Of a DNA stretch of 43,346 nt, positions 9,626 through 15,465 are shown one piece after another. Under the pieces are notes generated by a model that saw only the letters and a list, made by a program, of their open reading frames with translations, did no database searches and was not told the origin of the DNA. Every line of letters starts with the position of its first letter. The stretch's first letter is position 1. A program made the translations under genes and the position numbers. The stretch comes from a virus, in IMG/VR virus record IMGVR_UViG_3300008121_000006, positions 1 to 43,346 of that record, one strand, 5' to 3'.

Positions 9626-10774
9626 TCAGCCGAGCAGGATCGCGGAGTGCTCCGACTTCACGTTCTGCACGCCCCACGCGATGCCGATCTCGTAGCGGAC
9701 ACGCCGGTACTGCGCGTAGACCGCGACTTCGAAGGCGAGGCCGGAGCGCGGGTCCTGCACGACCATGCGGTCGTCGGCCGCGTCGCCTTCTTCCGGCAGC
9801 GCCGGAGCGCGGGTGAGCAGCACGAGCGCCGAGCGATGGAACGCCACGTTCGACGTCGCGGTGTTCCCGACGGTGACGGCGGTCGCCGAGGTCGGGATCG
9901 CCTGACGCAGACCCGGTGCGGCGAGCACGATGGTACCCGGCGCGGCGATGCCGGTCTCGACGACGTACTTGTTCGTGTCGCCCGCGAACGTGACGGTGTC
10001 GCCGGCGAGGATCGTACCGGTGCCGGTGATCAGCGTGATGCTGCGAGTGCCGACCGCATATCCCGCCGTGTTCGTCGTGTACGATGCGCCGGTACCCTTC
10101 GTCACGGCGCGGATCTGGCCGGACTCGCGGATGTCGAACCCGTGGAGCTGACCGAGGATGCCCTGACGCAGCAGACCCTGATCGCCGGCTTCGTTGACGC
10201 GGTACAGGCTCGGCAGCGAGCGGAGGTTCGCACCGGCGCTCGTGTCGACGACGAGCTGGAGATCACCGTCCGGACAGCCGTTGTCCTTCAGGATCTTCAG
10301 GATCTGCGCCGAATCGCCGATGTTCGGCGTCGAACCGAACGGAGTCGTGCCGGCGGTGCCGTACGCACGCGACGCGAGCTTGAAGAGGCCGGCGAGGTCG
10401 GCCTCGATCTCGTTCACCAGCGTCCGCATCGCCTGCGCCATCTGCTGCTGACGGAGCGTGAGGTAGCCGGGACCGTTGTTGTTCAGGCCGAGCTGTTCCT
10501 CGCCCGTCCAGCGGAACGGGACGGCGCGCGACTTGGTGATCTGCAGCGTCTTGTTCGTGAACGTCTGGTCGCCGGTGTCCGGCGGGTTCGTGCTCGGCGT
10601 GATGTCCTCGGCGGGCGCGGCGGGCGCGACCGGCGAACGGACGACCTGGCCGACGGCCGCGCGCGAGGCCTGCGCATCGAGCGTGACCGCCGGAATGAAG
10701 CCGACGAGTTCGCGACTGACGACGTCGAGCGCGCGATACAGGTCGGGGATGAGATTGGTGAGCGTGTTCGGCAT
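9626..10774 (-). CDS. Major capsid protein (P22 coat-like)
   Basis: A 382-residue protein. The N-terminus (TNLIPDLYRALDVVSREL followed by VGFIPAVTLDAQ) and the segment SRAVPFRWTGEEQLGLN are characteristic of the P22 gp5 coat family. The middle carries a Gly/Thr-rich beta insertion (about 215-300), comparable to the inserted domain of that family, and the C-terminus returns to the core fold with YEIGIAWGVQNV. It builds the procapsid shell with the scaffold encoded just upstream. The neighbours (scaffold before, connectors after) fit the standard order. A start at ATG 10774 gives the expected N-terminus. Confidence 0.93.
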   Translation of the reverse strand: MPNTLTNLIPDLYRALDVVSRELVGFIPAVTLDAQASRAAVGQVVRSPVAPAAPAEDITPSTNPPDTGDQTFTNKTLQITKSRAVPFRWTGEEQLGLNNNGPGYLTLRQQQMAQAMRTLVNEIEADLAGLFKLASRAYGTAGTTPFGSTPNIGDSAQILKILKDNGCPDGDLQLVVDTSAGANLRSLPSLYRVNEAGDQGLLRQGILGQLHGFDIRESGQIRAVTKGTGASYTTNTAGYAVGTRSITLITGTGTILAGDTVTFAGDTNKYVVETGIAAPGTIVLAAPGLRQAIPTSATAVTVGNTATSNVAFHRSALVLLTRAPALPEEGDAADDRMVVQDPRSGLAFEVAVYAQYRRVRYEIGIAWGVQNVKSEHSAILLG

Positions 10775-10803: not shown

Positions 10804-11559
10804 TCAGTCCTTGATGACGCCGCCGTTCTTCGTGAAGTCCATTCGCTCGGCAGCGTTCATCGTTTCGAAACGAGCGCGGTTGACGGTCTTGGGACCGCCA
10901 CCACCGGAGCCGCCACCAGACGGAGCACCGGAACCACCTTTCTGATCCGCCTTCAGGATCGCCTCCTTCCTCGGGTATCCGTCCACGATGATGCTGAGCG
11001 CCTCGTCGAAGTCGGCATCGTCGCCCGGCTTGACGCGGCTGCGCACGCGCTCGCCACGCTCGTCGAACGCCACGAGCTTGTCGCCGTCCATCTTGAACCG
11101 TGCGCCGAAGACGGACTGCACGATGTCAGGAGGGATGGCCATCTTCTCGGTGACGAACTTCGAGCCCGCGAACGTGTTCGTGAGCTTCTCGTTGAAGATC
11201 TTGGCGTTCAGCTCGGTGAGCTGCGCCTCGCGTTCCGCGAGCTTCTTCTCGTACTCGCCGCGAATGGACTCCTTGATCTTGTCCACCTCGCCGGCGTCGA
11301 CGAGCTTCTTGTCGTCCAGGTTCTTGACCGTGGTCAGCGCCTTCCGCGCCGCCTCGACGTCGAGGTCGCCGAACTTCTCGAGCTTCGCGAGTGCCTCTTC
11401 CTTCGCAACGCGGTGATCCCGCGACTCGGCGTTGAGTCGCTTGATGGACGCCATGGCGTTCGCCGCGTCGAAGGGAACTTCCTTCCCGTCGTCGTGGATG
11501 TACACCGGCATCCCGTCCTGCAGGACCGCGTTCCCGTTGGAATCGATCTTCAGTTTCAT
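10804..11559 (-). CDS. Scaffolding protein (DUF6651-like)
   Basis: A 251-residue protein starting MKLKIDSNGNAVLQDGMPVY at ATG 11559, with an AGGAG SD 7 nt upstream. An in-frame ATG at 11652 would translate through the hairpin leader and has no SD. The middle is charged and helical (about 50-130), followed by AIPPDIVQSVFGARFKMDGD, a Gly/Ser-rich linker near 205-222, and a basic C-terminal helix-turn-helix-like end (NRARFETMNAAERMDF). This architecture (DGMPVY N-terminus, coiled coil, C-terminal coat-binding segment) is typical of phage scaffolds encoded immediately before a coat gene. Scaffolds assemble the procapsid and leave before packaging. Confidence 0.85.
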   Translation of the reverse strand: MKLKIDSNGNAVLQDGMPVYIHDDGKEVPFDAANAMASIKRLNAESRDHRVAKEEALAKLEKFGDLDVEAARKALTTVKNLDDKKLVDAGEVDKIKESIRGEYEKKLAEREAQLTELNAKIFNEKLTNTFAGSKFVTEKMAIPPDIVQSVFGARFKMDGDKLVAFDERGERVRSRVKPGDDADFDEALSIIVDGYPRKEAILKADQKGGSGAPSGGGSGGGGPKTVNRARFETMNAAERMDFTKNGGVIKD

Positions 11560-11794
11560 CGTAGAGCTCCTGAGCTTCCGCTCGTTGGGATTTGGGCTTC
11601 GCGCCCGAGGAAGCAGGACGACCATCCGGTCTTGAACTGCGGAACCGGCCATCCGGCCATGAAGCGACGGTCATCCGACCGAGAGAATTGGGACCATCCG
11701 GTCCTGAGAACACGGAGAAGACGCGCGTTCTGCGCGCGCAGCATAGCAGAGGCCGAAGTACTCGTGGCCACTGAGCACGCGCGCCCGTGCGGCC
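11560..11794 (-). promoter_or_regulatory. Leader region before scaffold and coat genes
   Basis: A 235-nt gap in an otherwise packed operon. It contains four short hairpins with identical GGAU loops (listed separately), a GC-rich inverted repeat (CGCGCG stems near 11724-11740), and a possible extended -10 box TGCTATGCT on the minus strand at about 11740-11748. A start there would put all four hairpins in the 5' untranslated leader of the scaffold/coat transcript. The promoter is weak on sequence; no good -35 is seen. Confidence 0.4.
11620..11703 (-). repeat. Four hairpins with GGAU loops and covarying stems
   Basis: Units at 11692-11703, 11669-11680, 11647-11658 and 11620-11631. On the minus strand they read GACC-GGAT-GGTC, GGTC-GGAT-GACC, GGCC-GGAT-GGCC and GACC-GGAT-GGTC; two extend to 5-bp stems. 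The loop is invariant while the stems change with compensation (GACC/GGTC, GGTC/GACC, GGCC/GGCC), the signature of selection on RNA structure. Spacings are 22-27 nt. They lie 61-144 nt upstream of the scaffold ATG. Confidence 0.8.
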
Positions 11795-12001
11795 TCACTT
11801 GCGGCGCTCATACGTCACTCCGTTGTCGCCAGGAAACGGTTCGCGGTGGTCGTTCGCGCCGCTGCGAATCTCGCTGGGAATGCCAGCGGGGAACGCGCGG
11901 CAGCGCGCAGGGTCCGCGAAGCGATGCGCGCACGTGACGCAGGGAGTGCGCGCGACGAGCGTGTCTTCGTCGGTGAAGCGACTGGGAATCTTCTTATCCA
12001 C
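11795..12001 (-). CDS. Small Cys/His protein after the MuF gene
   Basis: A 68-residue protein starting at GTG 12001, with a GGAG SD 10 nt upstream inside the end of the MuF gene. It carries CVTCAHR, then a further Cys and the motif AFPAGIPSEI, then HREPFPGDNGVTYE. This arrangement (CxxCxHR, RCxAFPxGIPxxI, HxxPxPGDxG) recurs in small phage and bacterial proteins of unknown function and could bind zinc. An alternative ATG at 12043 would extend it by 14 residues inside MuF with no SD. The function is unknown; its place next to portal and MuF suggests a head-assembly accessory. Confidence 0.75.
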   Translation of the reverse strand: MDKKIPSRFTDEDTLVARTPCVTCAHRFADPARCRAFPAGIPSEIRSGANDHREPFPGDNGVTYERRK

Positions 12002-13766
12002 CGGGGATGTGCTCCAGAATGATGAATCGGCGGTAGCGGCCATCGACGAGCTGTCGCGGTCCTTCGGCGATGAAGCGGAACGCGCTGCGGTGGTCGAGGA
12101 TCAGCTCGCGCTCACCGACCGAGCCCGAGATCGCACGCGTTCCGGGAGGCATACGCACCTCCATGAACGTGTCGATTCGCCGATCGTCGGAGTTTCGCAT
12201 GATGAAGTAACTCGCGGTGTACGGCTCCGCAGAGACGCTCGTCAGGCCAGCAGCCTCGAACGTGTCGCCGACGCGAATGGACTCCAGCATACGACCGAGC
12301 TCGCTGTCAGGACGATACGACACGCCACGGAACCCGCGCATCGCTTCCTCAGACGGCGGAGCGTTCGCGATCTGTTCGCGAAGGAGCTCGGCCTGCGTAC
12401 GCGCCTCGTCGCTGCCGCGCCCGGTGCGCAGGTACTCGTTCAGCTCGCGTGCGCCAGCGTCCTTCACATAATGGTCGTGAGCAGCAGACAGCTCGTCCTC
12501 CCACCGCATCGCCTCGACGTGGCGTTCCTCGATGTAGTCCAGCGCGTGACCGATGTCTACGATCGGCGCACCGGTCTCTTCGTCGGTACCGGCCTCGGTA
12601 CTGTACGGTTCGTCCCATGCTGGCGGGTAGTCGTGCAGCGTCTCGATCGGCGAGGGCGCAGCGGGCTCTTCCGCCAACATCTCTTCGATAGCGCTCTGCT
12701 CCTCCGTCGTCGGAGTGGCGTCGGGCTCCGTCTGCTGCTCCTCGACGTCACCGACCTGCGCAGCCTCGCTCTCCTCGGCCTCGGTCGGGTAGCCGAGCAC
12801 CTCTTCGCGCAGTTCGCTGAGCGTGACGACCTGACCGTTCTGGTTGATGAGGTCGGCCGTCGTGATGACTTCGCTGCGCCAGAGCTCGGCGCGGCCTTCG
12901 CCGAGGATGTCGTTCTGCTGCTCGGGAGTCAGCGTCTCGAGCCAGTCGTCGAACTTGTCGATGTCCTTGCCGCCGTCTTCGGGCGGTCCGTCTTTGAACT
13001 TCTGCGGCAGCAGGATGCAGCGACACCACGGGTGGAGCGCCGGCGACGCGTAGGGAATGTCATGTCCGATCGGCTCACCATCCATGTCCCAGAGTTTGCC
13101 GGCGCGCTCAGCGCACTCGATGCAGACCTTGGGATCCAGGATGGCGTGCCATTTCAGCGCATTGACTCCGTTCGCTGCCATGGTGGCGCGCCTGCCCGCA
13201 TCCGCAGCGGAGTGGACAGTCGCGTCGCCGACGCCCCGAACCTTTCGGATGGCGTCATCTATGACACCGTTCCGCAAGTCTTTGCCAGTGCCGAGTACGC
13301 GCTCGACGACTTCCTTGCCCGACTGCCCGGCCTCGGCAGCGAGACGAATCTCTGCGGTCATGCGATCCATGAGCCGCTGCGCCTGTACCGCGAACGTTTC
13401 GTCGAGCGTCCTACCCATCAGCGTGAAGTTCGATGCGGTGCGCGCGACGAGTGCTTCGCCGGCCACCGTGGGGAACGCGCTCGCGCGTGCGGCGAACTTC
13501 GCCTCGATCGGCATGAGCTGTCGCACTGCGCCGACCTTGCGCGCCGCGATGCCTGCGTACGCGCTGGTCACGATGGTGTCGATCTGCTTCAGCAGCGCGT
13601 TCAGCTCCTTCTTCGAGTACCCGCCGAAGTCGGCCGTCCCCATGGCGCTCTTGATCTTGCGCGCCATGGTGCGCAGGTCTACGGTCGAAGACGCGTTGAG
13701 CCCGTTCGCCACGCGAATGAGGCGCAGCGCGTGCTCGACGTACTTCTGCGTGACGGTCTTGGCCAC
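11994..13766 (-). CDS. MuF head morphogenesis protein fused to ADP-ribosyltransferase
   Basis: A 590-residue protein from GTG 13766. Residues 1-255 resemble the MuF/SPP1 gp7 minor head family: a helical N-terminus, then a metal-ligand-like cluster with C215xxC218 and HPWC (H245, C248, C250). Residues 320-400 are an acidic, low-complexity linker. Residues 400-590 look like an R-S-E class mono-ADP-ribosyltransferase: Arg480 in GFRG, the LTSVS motif near 508-512, and an E552-R-E554 (ExE) motif before the end. MuF proteins sit at the portal and some are injected with DNA. A C-terminal toxin or effector domain would enter the host first and could modify host proteins. The ART fold is inferred from three motifs in the right order. 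Confidence 0.85.
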   Translation of the reverse strand: MAKTVTQKYVEHALRLIRVANGLNASSTVDLRTMARKIKSAMGTADFGGYSKKELNALLKQIDTIVTSAYAGIAARKVGAVRQLMPIEAKFAARASAFPTVAGEALVARTASNFTLMGRTLDETFAVQAQRLMDRMTAEIRLAAEAGQSGKEVVERVLGTGKDLRNGVIDDAIRKVRGVGDATVHSAADAGRRATMAANGVNALKWHAILDPKVCIECAERAGKLWDMDGEPIGHDIPYASPALHPWCRCILLPQKFKDGPPEDGGKDIDKFDDWLETLTPEQQNDILGEGRAELWRSEVITTADLINQNGQVVTLSELREEVLGYPTEAEESEAAQVGDVEEQQTEPDATPTTEEQSAIEEMLAEEPAAPSPIETLHDYPPAWDEPYSTEAGTDEETGAPIVDIGHALDYIEERHVEAMRWEDELSAAHDHYVKDAGARELNEYLRTGRGSDEARTQAELLREQIANAPPSEEAMRGFRGVSYRPDSELGRMLESIRVGDTFEAAGLTSVSAEPYTASYFIMRNSDDRRIDTFMEVRMPPGTRAISGSVGERELILDHRSAFRFIAEGPRQLVDGRYRRFIILEHIPGG

Positions 13767-13774
13767 GGCTCACC

Positions 13775-15244
13775 TCACTGCTGCGGCGGAACGACAGGCT
13801 TCGCGCCCGGTGCCGGAGTCTTCGGCTTGCCAGTGAGCGGATCGATGTCGTCGACGACCGGCTTCGCGCCGGGTTGCGGTGCGACGGGCTCGTCGTTCGC
13901 GACACGCTCCTGCTCGTCCTCCCACTCCAGCTCCTCGCTGAGGATGCCTCGGCGCTGCGCCTCGCCGAACGTGCTCTGGGACGATACGATGCCGCGATTG
14001 TTCAGGTCCATGACGATCTTCATCGACTCCAGCGGCGCAGCGTCCGGCTCGAGATTCGCGACGAGCTCGACGGTGCCGCCGGAGGTCTCGTTGCGGTACT
14101 TCGCCACCGTGTCCAGCAGCGAGCCGATCGTGGTCTCGAGGTCGTTGACGAACGCGCCGAGCGGCGAGTTCTCACGCGCGGCCTCCTCGCTGCTCTGCGT
14201 GGCGGTCTTCGTGCCAGCCGGGTTGACGAGGAGCTTGGCACCGGCCTCGCGCATCTCGTCCTTCAGGCTCTCGAGCGAATCGCGTCCGGACTTGATCGCC
14301 GCGCCAGTGTGTTCCACGAACTGGAGCTTGCCGTCATGCGGGAGCTTGATCGCGCTCTTCGCACCGATGGTGATCTGCGCATCGTCATCCATTCCCATGG
14401 CCACCAGGATGGGGACGCTCGCGATCTCGAGCAGCGAGTCGTTCGACGACTGCTGGCACCAGTGCTTCACGTTGAGGTATGCGAGCTCGCGCAGCAGCGG
14501 CTCGGCGGTCATGAACCCGGTTCGCTTCGCATAGAGCGTGACCAGCGCGATCTCGCCGAGCTCGTTGGGAATGCGCTCGGCCTCCTGCCACCGGAACTTC
14601 CCTTGCGCGTCCTTGATCTTCTCGTACGTGGCGATGTCGGCGCGCGTGTAGACGCGAATCTGCTCGACGTCTGTGACACCGAACTCGCCGTCCTCGACTC
14701 GCTTCGTGAAGCGAACGCGGAGCTGAGTGAGTACGCCGCGCTCCTCGCGCCAGCCGACGATTCGCTTCGCGCTCACGTGGACGAGGTACGGGCGGAGCTT
14801 CGCCTTTCGCTGCTCCTCCAGCGTACGCACGTCGCCGCGCGGCGGAGCCTCGACGAGCGCGTGCGAGAGCCCGTACGCCATGGCGTCGCGCGCCCATGTC
14901 TTGCAGAAGTCATTGAGCGATCTCTTCTGCATGTCCACGTCGTCGAGCACTTCCTCGACGATCCACGATGGCACGTCCTCCTTCGGCTTGATCGGCTCGA
15001 AGAACGCGCGGCCGATGAGCGCCTTCAGCGTCTCCTCGAACGCGGGGAACAGAGTGGACGTGGACAGCCGCGCCTCGTAGTCCTTGGGGTCTTCGAGCGT
15101 GCGTCGCGGCAGGAACAACTCACCAGCGGCGCGCATGGCCGGCGTGCCGCCGAGCAGTGCGTCGATGATCGGCCATTCTTTGGCCATCGCGTCGACTTCG
15201 GCGATGGGCGTCTCGATCGGGTGGCGTGATTGCGCAGTGCTCAT
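13775..15244 (-). CDS. Portal protein (DUF4055-like)
   Basis: A 489-residue protein starting at ATG 15244, overlapping the upstream stop by ATGA; an in-frame ATG at 15292 lies inside the upstream gene. Portals form the dodecameric ring at one vertex that passes DNA and binds terminase. The N-terminal region (IDALLGGTPAMRAAGELFLPR), the YLVHVSAKRIVGWR segment, the EIALVTLYAKRTGF stretch and the QQSSNDSLLEIASVPIL helix match the DUF4055 portal family. The C-terminal 40 residues are Pro-rich and probably disordered. It lies between the large terminase and the MuF gene, as expected. Confidence 0.9.
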   Translation of the reverse strand: MSTAQSRHPIETPIAEVDAMAKEWPIIDALLGGTPAMRAAGELFLPRRTLEDPKDYEARLSTSTLFPAFEETLKALIGRAFFEPIKPKEDVPSWIVEEVLDDVDMQKRSLNDFCKTWARDAMAYGLSHALVEAPPRGDVRTLEEQRKAKLRPYLVHVSAKRIVGWREERGVLTQLRVRFTKRVEDGEFGVTDVEQIRVYTRADIATYEKIKDAQGKFRWQEAERIPNELGEIALVTLYAKRTGFMTAEPLLRELAYLNVKHWCQQSSNDSLLEIASVPILVAMGMDDDAQITIGAKSAIKLPHDGKLQFVEHTGAAIKSGRDSLESLKDEMREAGAKLLVNPAGTKTATQSSEEAARENSPLGAFVNDLETTIGSLLDTVAKYRNETSGGTVELVANLEPDAAPLESMKIVMDLNNRGIVSSQSTFGEAQRRGILSEELEWEDEQERVANDEPVAPQPGAKPVVDDIDPLTGKPKTPAPGAKPVVPPQQ

Positions 15245-15465
15245 GACTTGTCTCCGTTGATGGCGTACTCGATGAGTTGATGGGCGAGCCACAACGCGTC
15301 CCTTCTCGCCATGGCGGATGACCTCACCAGCAGCGAGCCGTCGTCCAGTGTTCCAACGACGATGACCTCCTTCAGCTCCCCGTTGTCAGCGAACTGGAGA
15401 GCTGAGTGCAGAGCTTGCTCTGGCGAGAACGACGTACTCGCGGGCAGGTGCGCGACGTTGTTCAT
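15241..15465 (-). CDS. Small conserved phage protein
   Basis: A 74-residue protein. A helix with EQALHSALQ is followed by two strands (EVIVVGTLDDGSLLVRSS) and a C-terminal helix ARRDALWLAHQLIEYA. Short proteins with this beta-hairpin plus DALWLAxxL motif are common in phage genomes and have no known function. Here it overlaps the portal start by 4 nt and follows the large terminase by 3 nt, so it is co-translated with packaging genes. The sequence gives no catalytic clue. Confidence 0.75.
   Translation of the reverse strand: MNNVAHLPASTSFSPEQALHSALQFADNGELKEVIVVGTLDDGSLLVRSSAMARRDALWLAHQLIEYAINGDKS

Follow-up and report, generated by a model that had tools for sequence, protein, structure and literature searches.

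Tandem GGAU-loop hairpins before DUF6651 scaffold genes of phages: a candidate autogenous translational operator

A comparative analysis of phage leaders has revealed a conserved element of tandem hairpins with GGAU or GGAA tetraloops, usually three, located directly 5' of scaffold genes of the DUF6651 (phrog_784) type and often again 5' of the coat gene, in alpha-, beta- and gammaproteobacterial phages and prophages. The sequence under study is IMG/VR record IMGVR_UViG_3300008121_000006, positions 1 to 43,346, and the window is this whole stretch of 43,346 nt. It is proposed, with about an even chance of being right, that the hairpins are an autogenous translational operator bound by the phage scaffold protein (DUF6651/phrog_784). 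The element is placed at the Shine-Dalgarno sequence and occurs in no leaders but those of scaffold and coat, which points to translational control, in which the leader would be transcribed and a protein bound to it would repress translation.

The hairpin array of the window

The array is housed in a 235-nt gap of the minus strand, between the stop of an 82-aa open reading frame (11795) and the scaffold start codon (11559). The upstream frame (11795-12043) showed a weak match to phrog_33375, a family of unknown function. The scaffold gene (10804..11559, minus strand; 251 aa, phrog_784/phrog_206, Pfam DUF6651) encodes the proposed ligand of the array, and its codons 1-31 (11467..11559, minus strand) specify a conserved N-terminal module, MKLK..DG.PVY.HDDGKE..FD, predicted to form a small beta domain. 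The P22-type coat gene (9626..10774, minus strand; phrog_283, PF11651) is located 3' of the scaffold gene; there is no second array 5' of it in the window, although many relatives have one. Three loci from other metagenomes, L002, L003 and L004 (3300008258, 3300008117 and 3300021578), share with the window an identical coat gene and the same array.

Four hairpins with identical GGAU loops had been reported at 11620-11703 of the minus strand in a sequence-only reading of the window, and they are present exactly there: GGACC-GGAU-GGUCC (hairpin 1, 11691..11704), CGGUC-GGAU-GACCG (hairpin 2, 11668..11681), GGCC-GGAU-GGCC (hairpin 3, 11647..11658) and GACC-GGAU-GGUC (hairpin 4, 11620..11631). That inventory was incomplete, as two further minus-strand hairpins had been overlooked: GAGC-GGAA-GCUC (hairpin 5, 11572..11583), which stands where the last hairpin of an array is usually found, and GGGC-GCGAA-GCCC, with a pentaloop, between hairpins 4 and 5 (11594..11606). 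The loop of hairpin 5 lies 20 nt 5' of the scaffold start codon, and the hairpin abuts a Shine-Dalgarno-like AGGAG (11567..11571, minus strand). In two relatives that also have a DUF6651 scaffold, L011 (2760-2827) and L240 (a Microcystis phage, 2470-2500), GUGAA/GCGAA pentaloops stand in for GGAU, and the pentaloops of these phages and of the window perhaps reflect a shifted ligand specificity.

The four GGAU hairpins of the window are beyond chance. No other perfect 4-4-4 GGAT hairpin exists in the 43 kb, whichever strand is read, and in 300 first-order Markov simulations there were at most three same-loop hairpins within 90 bp, versus four in the window. The folding energy of the leader was ordinary (z of -0.55 and -0.18) because the stems are short and able to pair with one another; this value was not used as evidence, and the case for structure in the leader is comparative and not energetic. 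A search of the window leader for a promoter or a terminator found neither.

Conservation and covariation of the element

Relatives were gathered through the coat protein and comprised 80 viral loci and 28 loci from named bacterial genomes. Many of them carry tandem GGAT hairpins at the corresponding position, built on clearly different stems, such as GGGC/GCCC, CCTC/GAGG and GCCG/CGGC, or ATTC/GAAT in an Acinetobacter of 38% GC. Of all tetraloops, GGAT showed the strongest upstream enrichment in 77 non-redundant loci (35 hairpins in 67 kb versus 11 in 585 kb elsewhere), followed by GGAA, and the enrichment was strand specific, with no hairpin having the antisense loop ATCC in the same upstream regions.

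Covariation was analysed at all GGATs located no more than 100 nt from the start codon, paired or not, which gave 118 sites in 51 non-redundant leaders. Their flanks were paired at positions 1 to 4 in 95, 95, 90 and 77% of the sites, versus 39-42% at 974 GGATs elsewhere (39, 39 and 40% at positions 1 to 3). The inner flank pairs run through all Watson-Crick types (at position 2, GC 39, CG 35, UA 24 and AU 8), and a pair counter gave 144 doubly changed cells (59 in shuffles), with covariation scored at 0.72 (0.20 in shuffles). When RNAalifold was applied to 26 whole leaders, three hairpins were found unaided, and 10 of the 11 pairs showed double changes; in a three-hairpin model, in which hairpin 1 is extended by an outer stem (GCCN with NGGC), double changes were present in 12 of 15 pairs. 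A structured RNA under selection is well supported by these compensatory changes, which exceed those of shuffled controls. The sequence-only reading had taken the covarying stems as an RNA-binding target in the scaffold leader and had named the lack of covariation in homologous leaders as its refutation; covariation was looked for and is present, and it lends this reading strong support.

The layout of the element is also constant. Loops are mostly 19-26 nt apart (median 23), the last one is mostly 18-25 nt 5' of the start codon, and its 3' arm adjoins the Shine-Dalgarno sequence. Seven leaders (L024, L028, L051, L098, L103, L155 and L237) offer no Shine-Dalgarno candidate other than the loop GGA. 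The base 3' of GGA was T in 118 cases, A in 40, G in 24 and C in 11.

Perfect inverted repeats in intergenic DNA could also constitute a DNA element, that is, an operator bound as double strand or as cruciform, a pac site or a recombination site. This explanation is extremely improbable, considering that the half-sites vary freely (39 distinct 4-bp stems), that the loop, which is not palindromic, is invariant on the sense strand, that the spacing to start codon and Shine-Dalgarno sequence is fixed, and that a duplicate of the element precedes the start of a second gene.

A strong intrinsic terminator was found to end just 5' of the array in 28 of the 51 leaders, versus none of 186 control windows, and its T-run lies mostly 65-100 nt before the scaffold start; the window is without such a terminator. 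The late operon of phage HK639 has annotated terminators throughout, and therefore antiterminator read-through is likely.

A covariance model built without the window in its training set detected the window array with an E value of 4e-6. Among 87 sources, every match with E < 0.01 sits in a locus with a DUF6651 scaffold, and many of these loci show a second match 5' of the coat gene. In 249 Pseudomonas genomes the model gave 20 matches with E < 2e-5, of which 19 were directly before the scaffold gene or its coat gene (16 directly 5' of a scaffold with the conserved N-terminus and 3 in the adjacent coat leader); the one exception was L263 (E 6e-6), and five weaker Pseudomonas matches (E 2e-4 to 9e-4) were likewise outside a scaffold or coat context. 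A pattern scan of viral contigs, carried out with three CGGATG motifs and no gene information, found stem-bearing arrays before a DUF6651 scaffold or its coat wherever the gene was readable, with the exception of clusters L118, L138, L158, L165, L180 and L184, which were set aside for near-identical repeated stems or the lack of a scaffold context.

The element is apparently new to the literature searched and to Rfam. At the gathering score, Rfam 15 contained no family for the window (only chance matches with E up to 10) or for seven relatives, and no account of the hairpin element was found in a literature search from which subscription papers were largely out of reach.

Association with scaffold type and the candidate ligands

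The arrays follow the type of scaffold and not the coat in the loci compared. Among 87 non-redundant coat relatives, at least two perfect hairpins were present in 28 of the 39 with a DUF6651 scaffold (fewer than two in the other 11), and no array was found in the 48 with another scaffold. Array scaffolds share the N-terminal module and the DUF6651 body. Scaffold type changes many times on the coat tree, and the array follows it in about 8 of 10 independent contrasts and never goes the opposite way (median p 0.008). The array is kept where a DUF6651 scaffold, with a different C-terminal tail, is combined with a coat of unrelated type, about 320 residues long (Pseudomonas R656, D14P and PS-1; Acinetobacter B1251), and it is absent from Acinetobacter qsb1, in which the coat is 62% identical to that of the window and the scaffold is of another kind. 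Hairpins in the coat leader were found in 13 of the 39 phages with a DUF6651 scaffold versus none of the 48 without it; in Rhizobium P106B and X2_24, where genes are located between scaffold and coat, the coat array remains with the coat gene. Autoregulation by phage coat or scaffold, an option already raised from the window alone, appears to be the best fit to arrays that track the scaffold family, and it is from this association that the scaffold is put forward as the probable ligand. As the array is located beside the scaffold start, linked inheritance alone could yield the same association.

The scaffolds seem to be modular: the C-terminal tail is of at least two unrelated kinds, seemingly matched to the coat family (L113, L125, L161, L203 and L234 compared with 10804-10950 of the window), and the N-terminus and the array are constant. 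The assignment of the array to the N-terminal module alone was weakened, as in array-less relatives the scaffold is different over its entire length. A closer type of portal accompanies the scaffold family as a whole.

The ligand could also be encoded by the phage without being the scaffold, with the portal, or a small protein too divergent to be seen, regulating both scaffold and coat. The portal (13775..15292 of the minus strand of the window, phrog_145) is, besides the scaffold, the only protein detectably common to the six array phages compared (the window, HK639, B1251, P106B, DMCA and PS-1), and it is closer among phages with a DUF6651 scaffold (median identity 37% versus 24%). However, portal homologues are also present, at lower identity, in 15 of 28 array-less phages, the array adjoins the scaffold gene, and the precedent is a scaffold, since autoregulation of the P22 scaffolding protein (gene 8) is credited to Wyckoff and Casjens (1985) in PMC5744158. 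A phage-encoded ligand other than the scaffold is given a small chance, and the portal appears to be a weaker candidate than the scaffold.

A different proposal of the sequence-only reading, that the GGA loops are bound by host CsrA/RsmA, which would repress translation of scaffold and coat or be titrated by the leader, has become very unlikely. The layout resembles that of CsrA targets, with several GGA sites in hairpin loops followed by UG and one of them over the Shine-Dalgarno sequence, and CsrA is present in some hosts (Pseudomonas lini, Sodalis, Serratia and Acinetobacter). Nevertheless, a Pfam search found CsrA absent from seven array-bearing host genomes, namely the Phyllobacterium, Variovorax and Pararobbsia isolates and four metagenome-assembled genomes that may be incomplete (Tardiphaga, Paraburkholderia, Rhizobiales and alphaproteobacterial). 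A phage-encoded CsrA was found neither in the window nor in 11 other phage records, which include fragments. The high-affinity CsrA consensus is the hexaloop ANGGAX (PMC4005645), and the adenine of ANGGA was A in only 11 of the 118 leader sites, at a position that is a covarying stem pair. As host CsrA is not the general ligand, the ligand would be encoded by the phage or would be a more widely conserved host factor.

A conserved host factor would be compatible with a device for translation initiation or mRNA stability, by which the host machinery (30S standby with the GGA loops, S1 or protection from RNases) boosts the most expressed virion genes with no dedicated phage ligand. The same element in alpha-, beta- and gammaproteobacterial hosts, its location before scaffold and coat only, and the loop GGA that can be the sole Shine-Dalgarno sequence are all consistent with such a device. 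On the other hand, phages with a close coat and another scaffold do without the element, hairpins before the coat gene track the scaffold type, and plain Shine-Dalgarno mimicry does not predict that the base after GGA is mostly U and then A. We regard this explanation as having a modest chance of being correct.

With the scaffold as the ligand, the mechanism would be as follows. A GGAU/GGAA tetraloop on a stem of 4-5 bp that is free to vary would be read as loop and helix, not as stem sequence. The last hairpin abuts the Shine-Dalgarno sequence, or supplants it through its loop GGA, and a protein filling the array would block 30S binding. When coat is short, leftover free scaffold would repress its own translation, and also that of the coat where a second array exists, so that scaffold and coat would be kept proportionate to assembly.

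The N-terminal beta domain of the scaffold is predicted with a pLDDT of about 95. Searches of the PDB by sequence with the scaffold, and by fold with the whole scaffold and with its N-terminal 66 residues, gave nothing significant, and an NCBIfam search gave no match; weak matches to the fold of ribosomal protein eL24 (E about 1, Z 3.0 or less) were disregarded. The N-terminal 31 residues contain 6 acidic and 3 basic residues. The lack of a fold match and the acidic excess leave direct RNA binding through the N-terminus in doubt.

More broadly, and with somewhat less than an even chance of being right, the scaffold of a large group of dsDNA phages may be an RNA-binding translational repressor that reads GGAU arrays before its own gene and the coat gene by a novel binding mode, procapsid assembly being sensed at the mRNA. 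If true, this would be a new class of autogenous RNA operator, the element being a new RNA family for Rfam and the DUF6651 scaffolds a possible new family of RNA-binding proteins. The element is compact and occurs in the culturable phages HK639 (E. coli), PS-1 (Pseudomonas) and B1251 (Acinetobacter), in which the proposal could be examined by means of a leader reporter and a single protein.

Comparison with known systems

The way in which scaffold and coat are proportioned has been an open question since the autoregulation of the P22 scaffold, and we know of no RNA target for it. In P22, unassembled scaffold lowers its own synthesis post-transcriptionally. The array phages resemble P22 in that the scaffold gene is followed by the coat gene, the coat of the window belongs to the Pfam family of the P22 coat, and the element is found here in the scaffold leader of a phage with a P22-type coat. 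They differ in that P22 gene 8 starts 13 nt after the portal gene, with neither GGA hairpins nor an array before it, whereas array phages often have a separate coat array and their scaffold is of the DUF6651 type.

CsrA/RsmE targets and RsmZ-type small RNAs share with the element the repeated hairpins with GGA in the loop, one of them over or beside the Shine-Dalgarno sequence. In contrast to those targets, the array is made up of GGAU/GGAA tetraloops in which the adenine of ANGGA is swapped for a covarying stem pair, and it occurs in hosts without CsrA and in tested phages that lack it.

In MS2-type operators the coat protein binds a hairpin at a gene start and represses translation, and a structural protein is likewise proposed here to repress translation through hairpins at a gene start. 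The array differs from that operator in belonging to dsDNA phages, in its tandem hairpins and other loop, and in the proposed ligand, which would be the scaffold rather than the coat.
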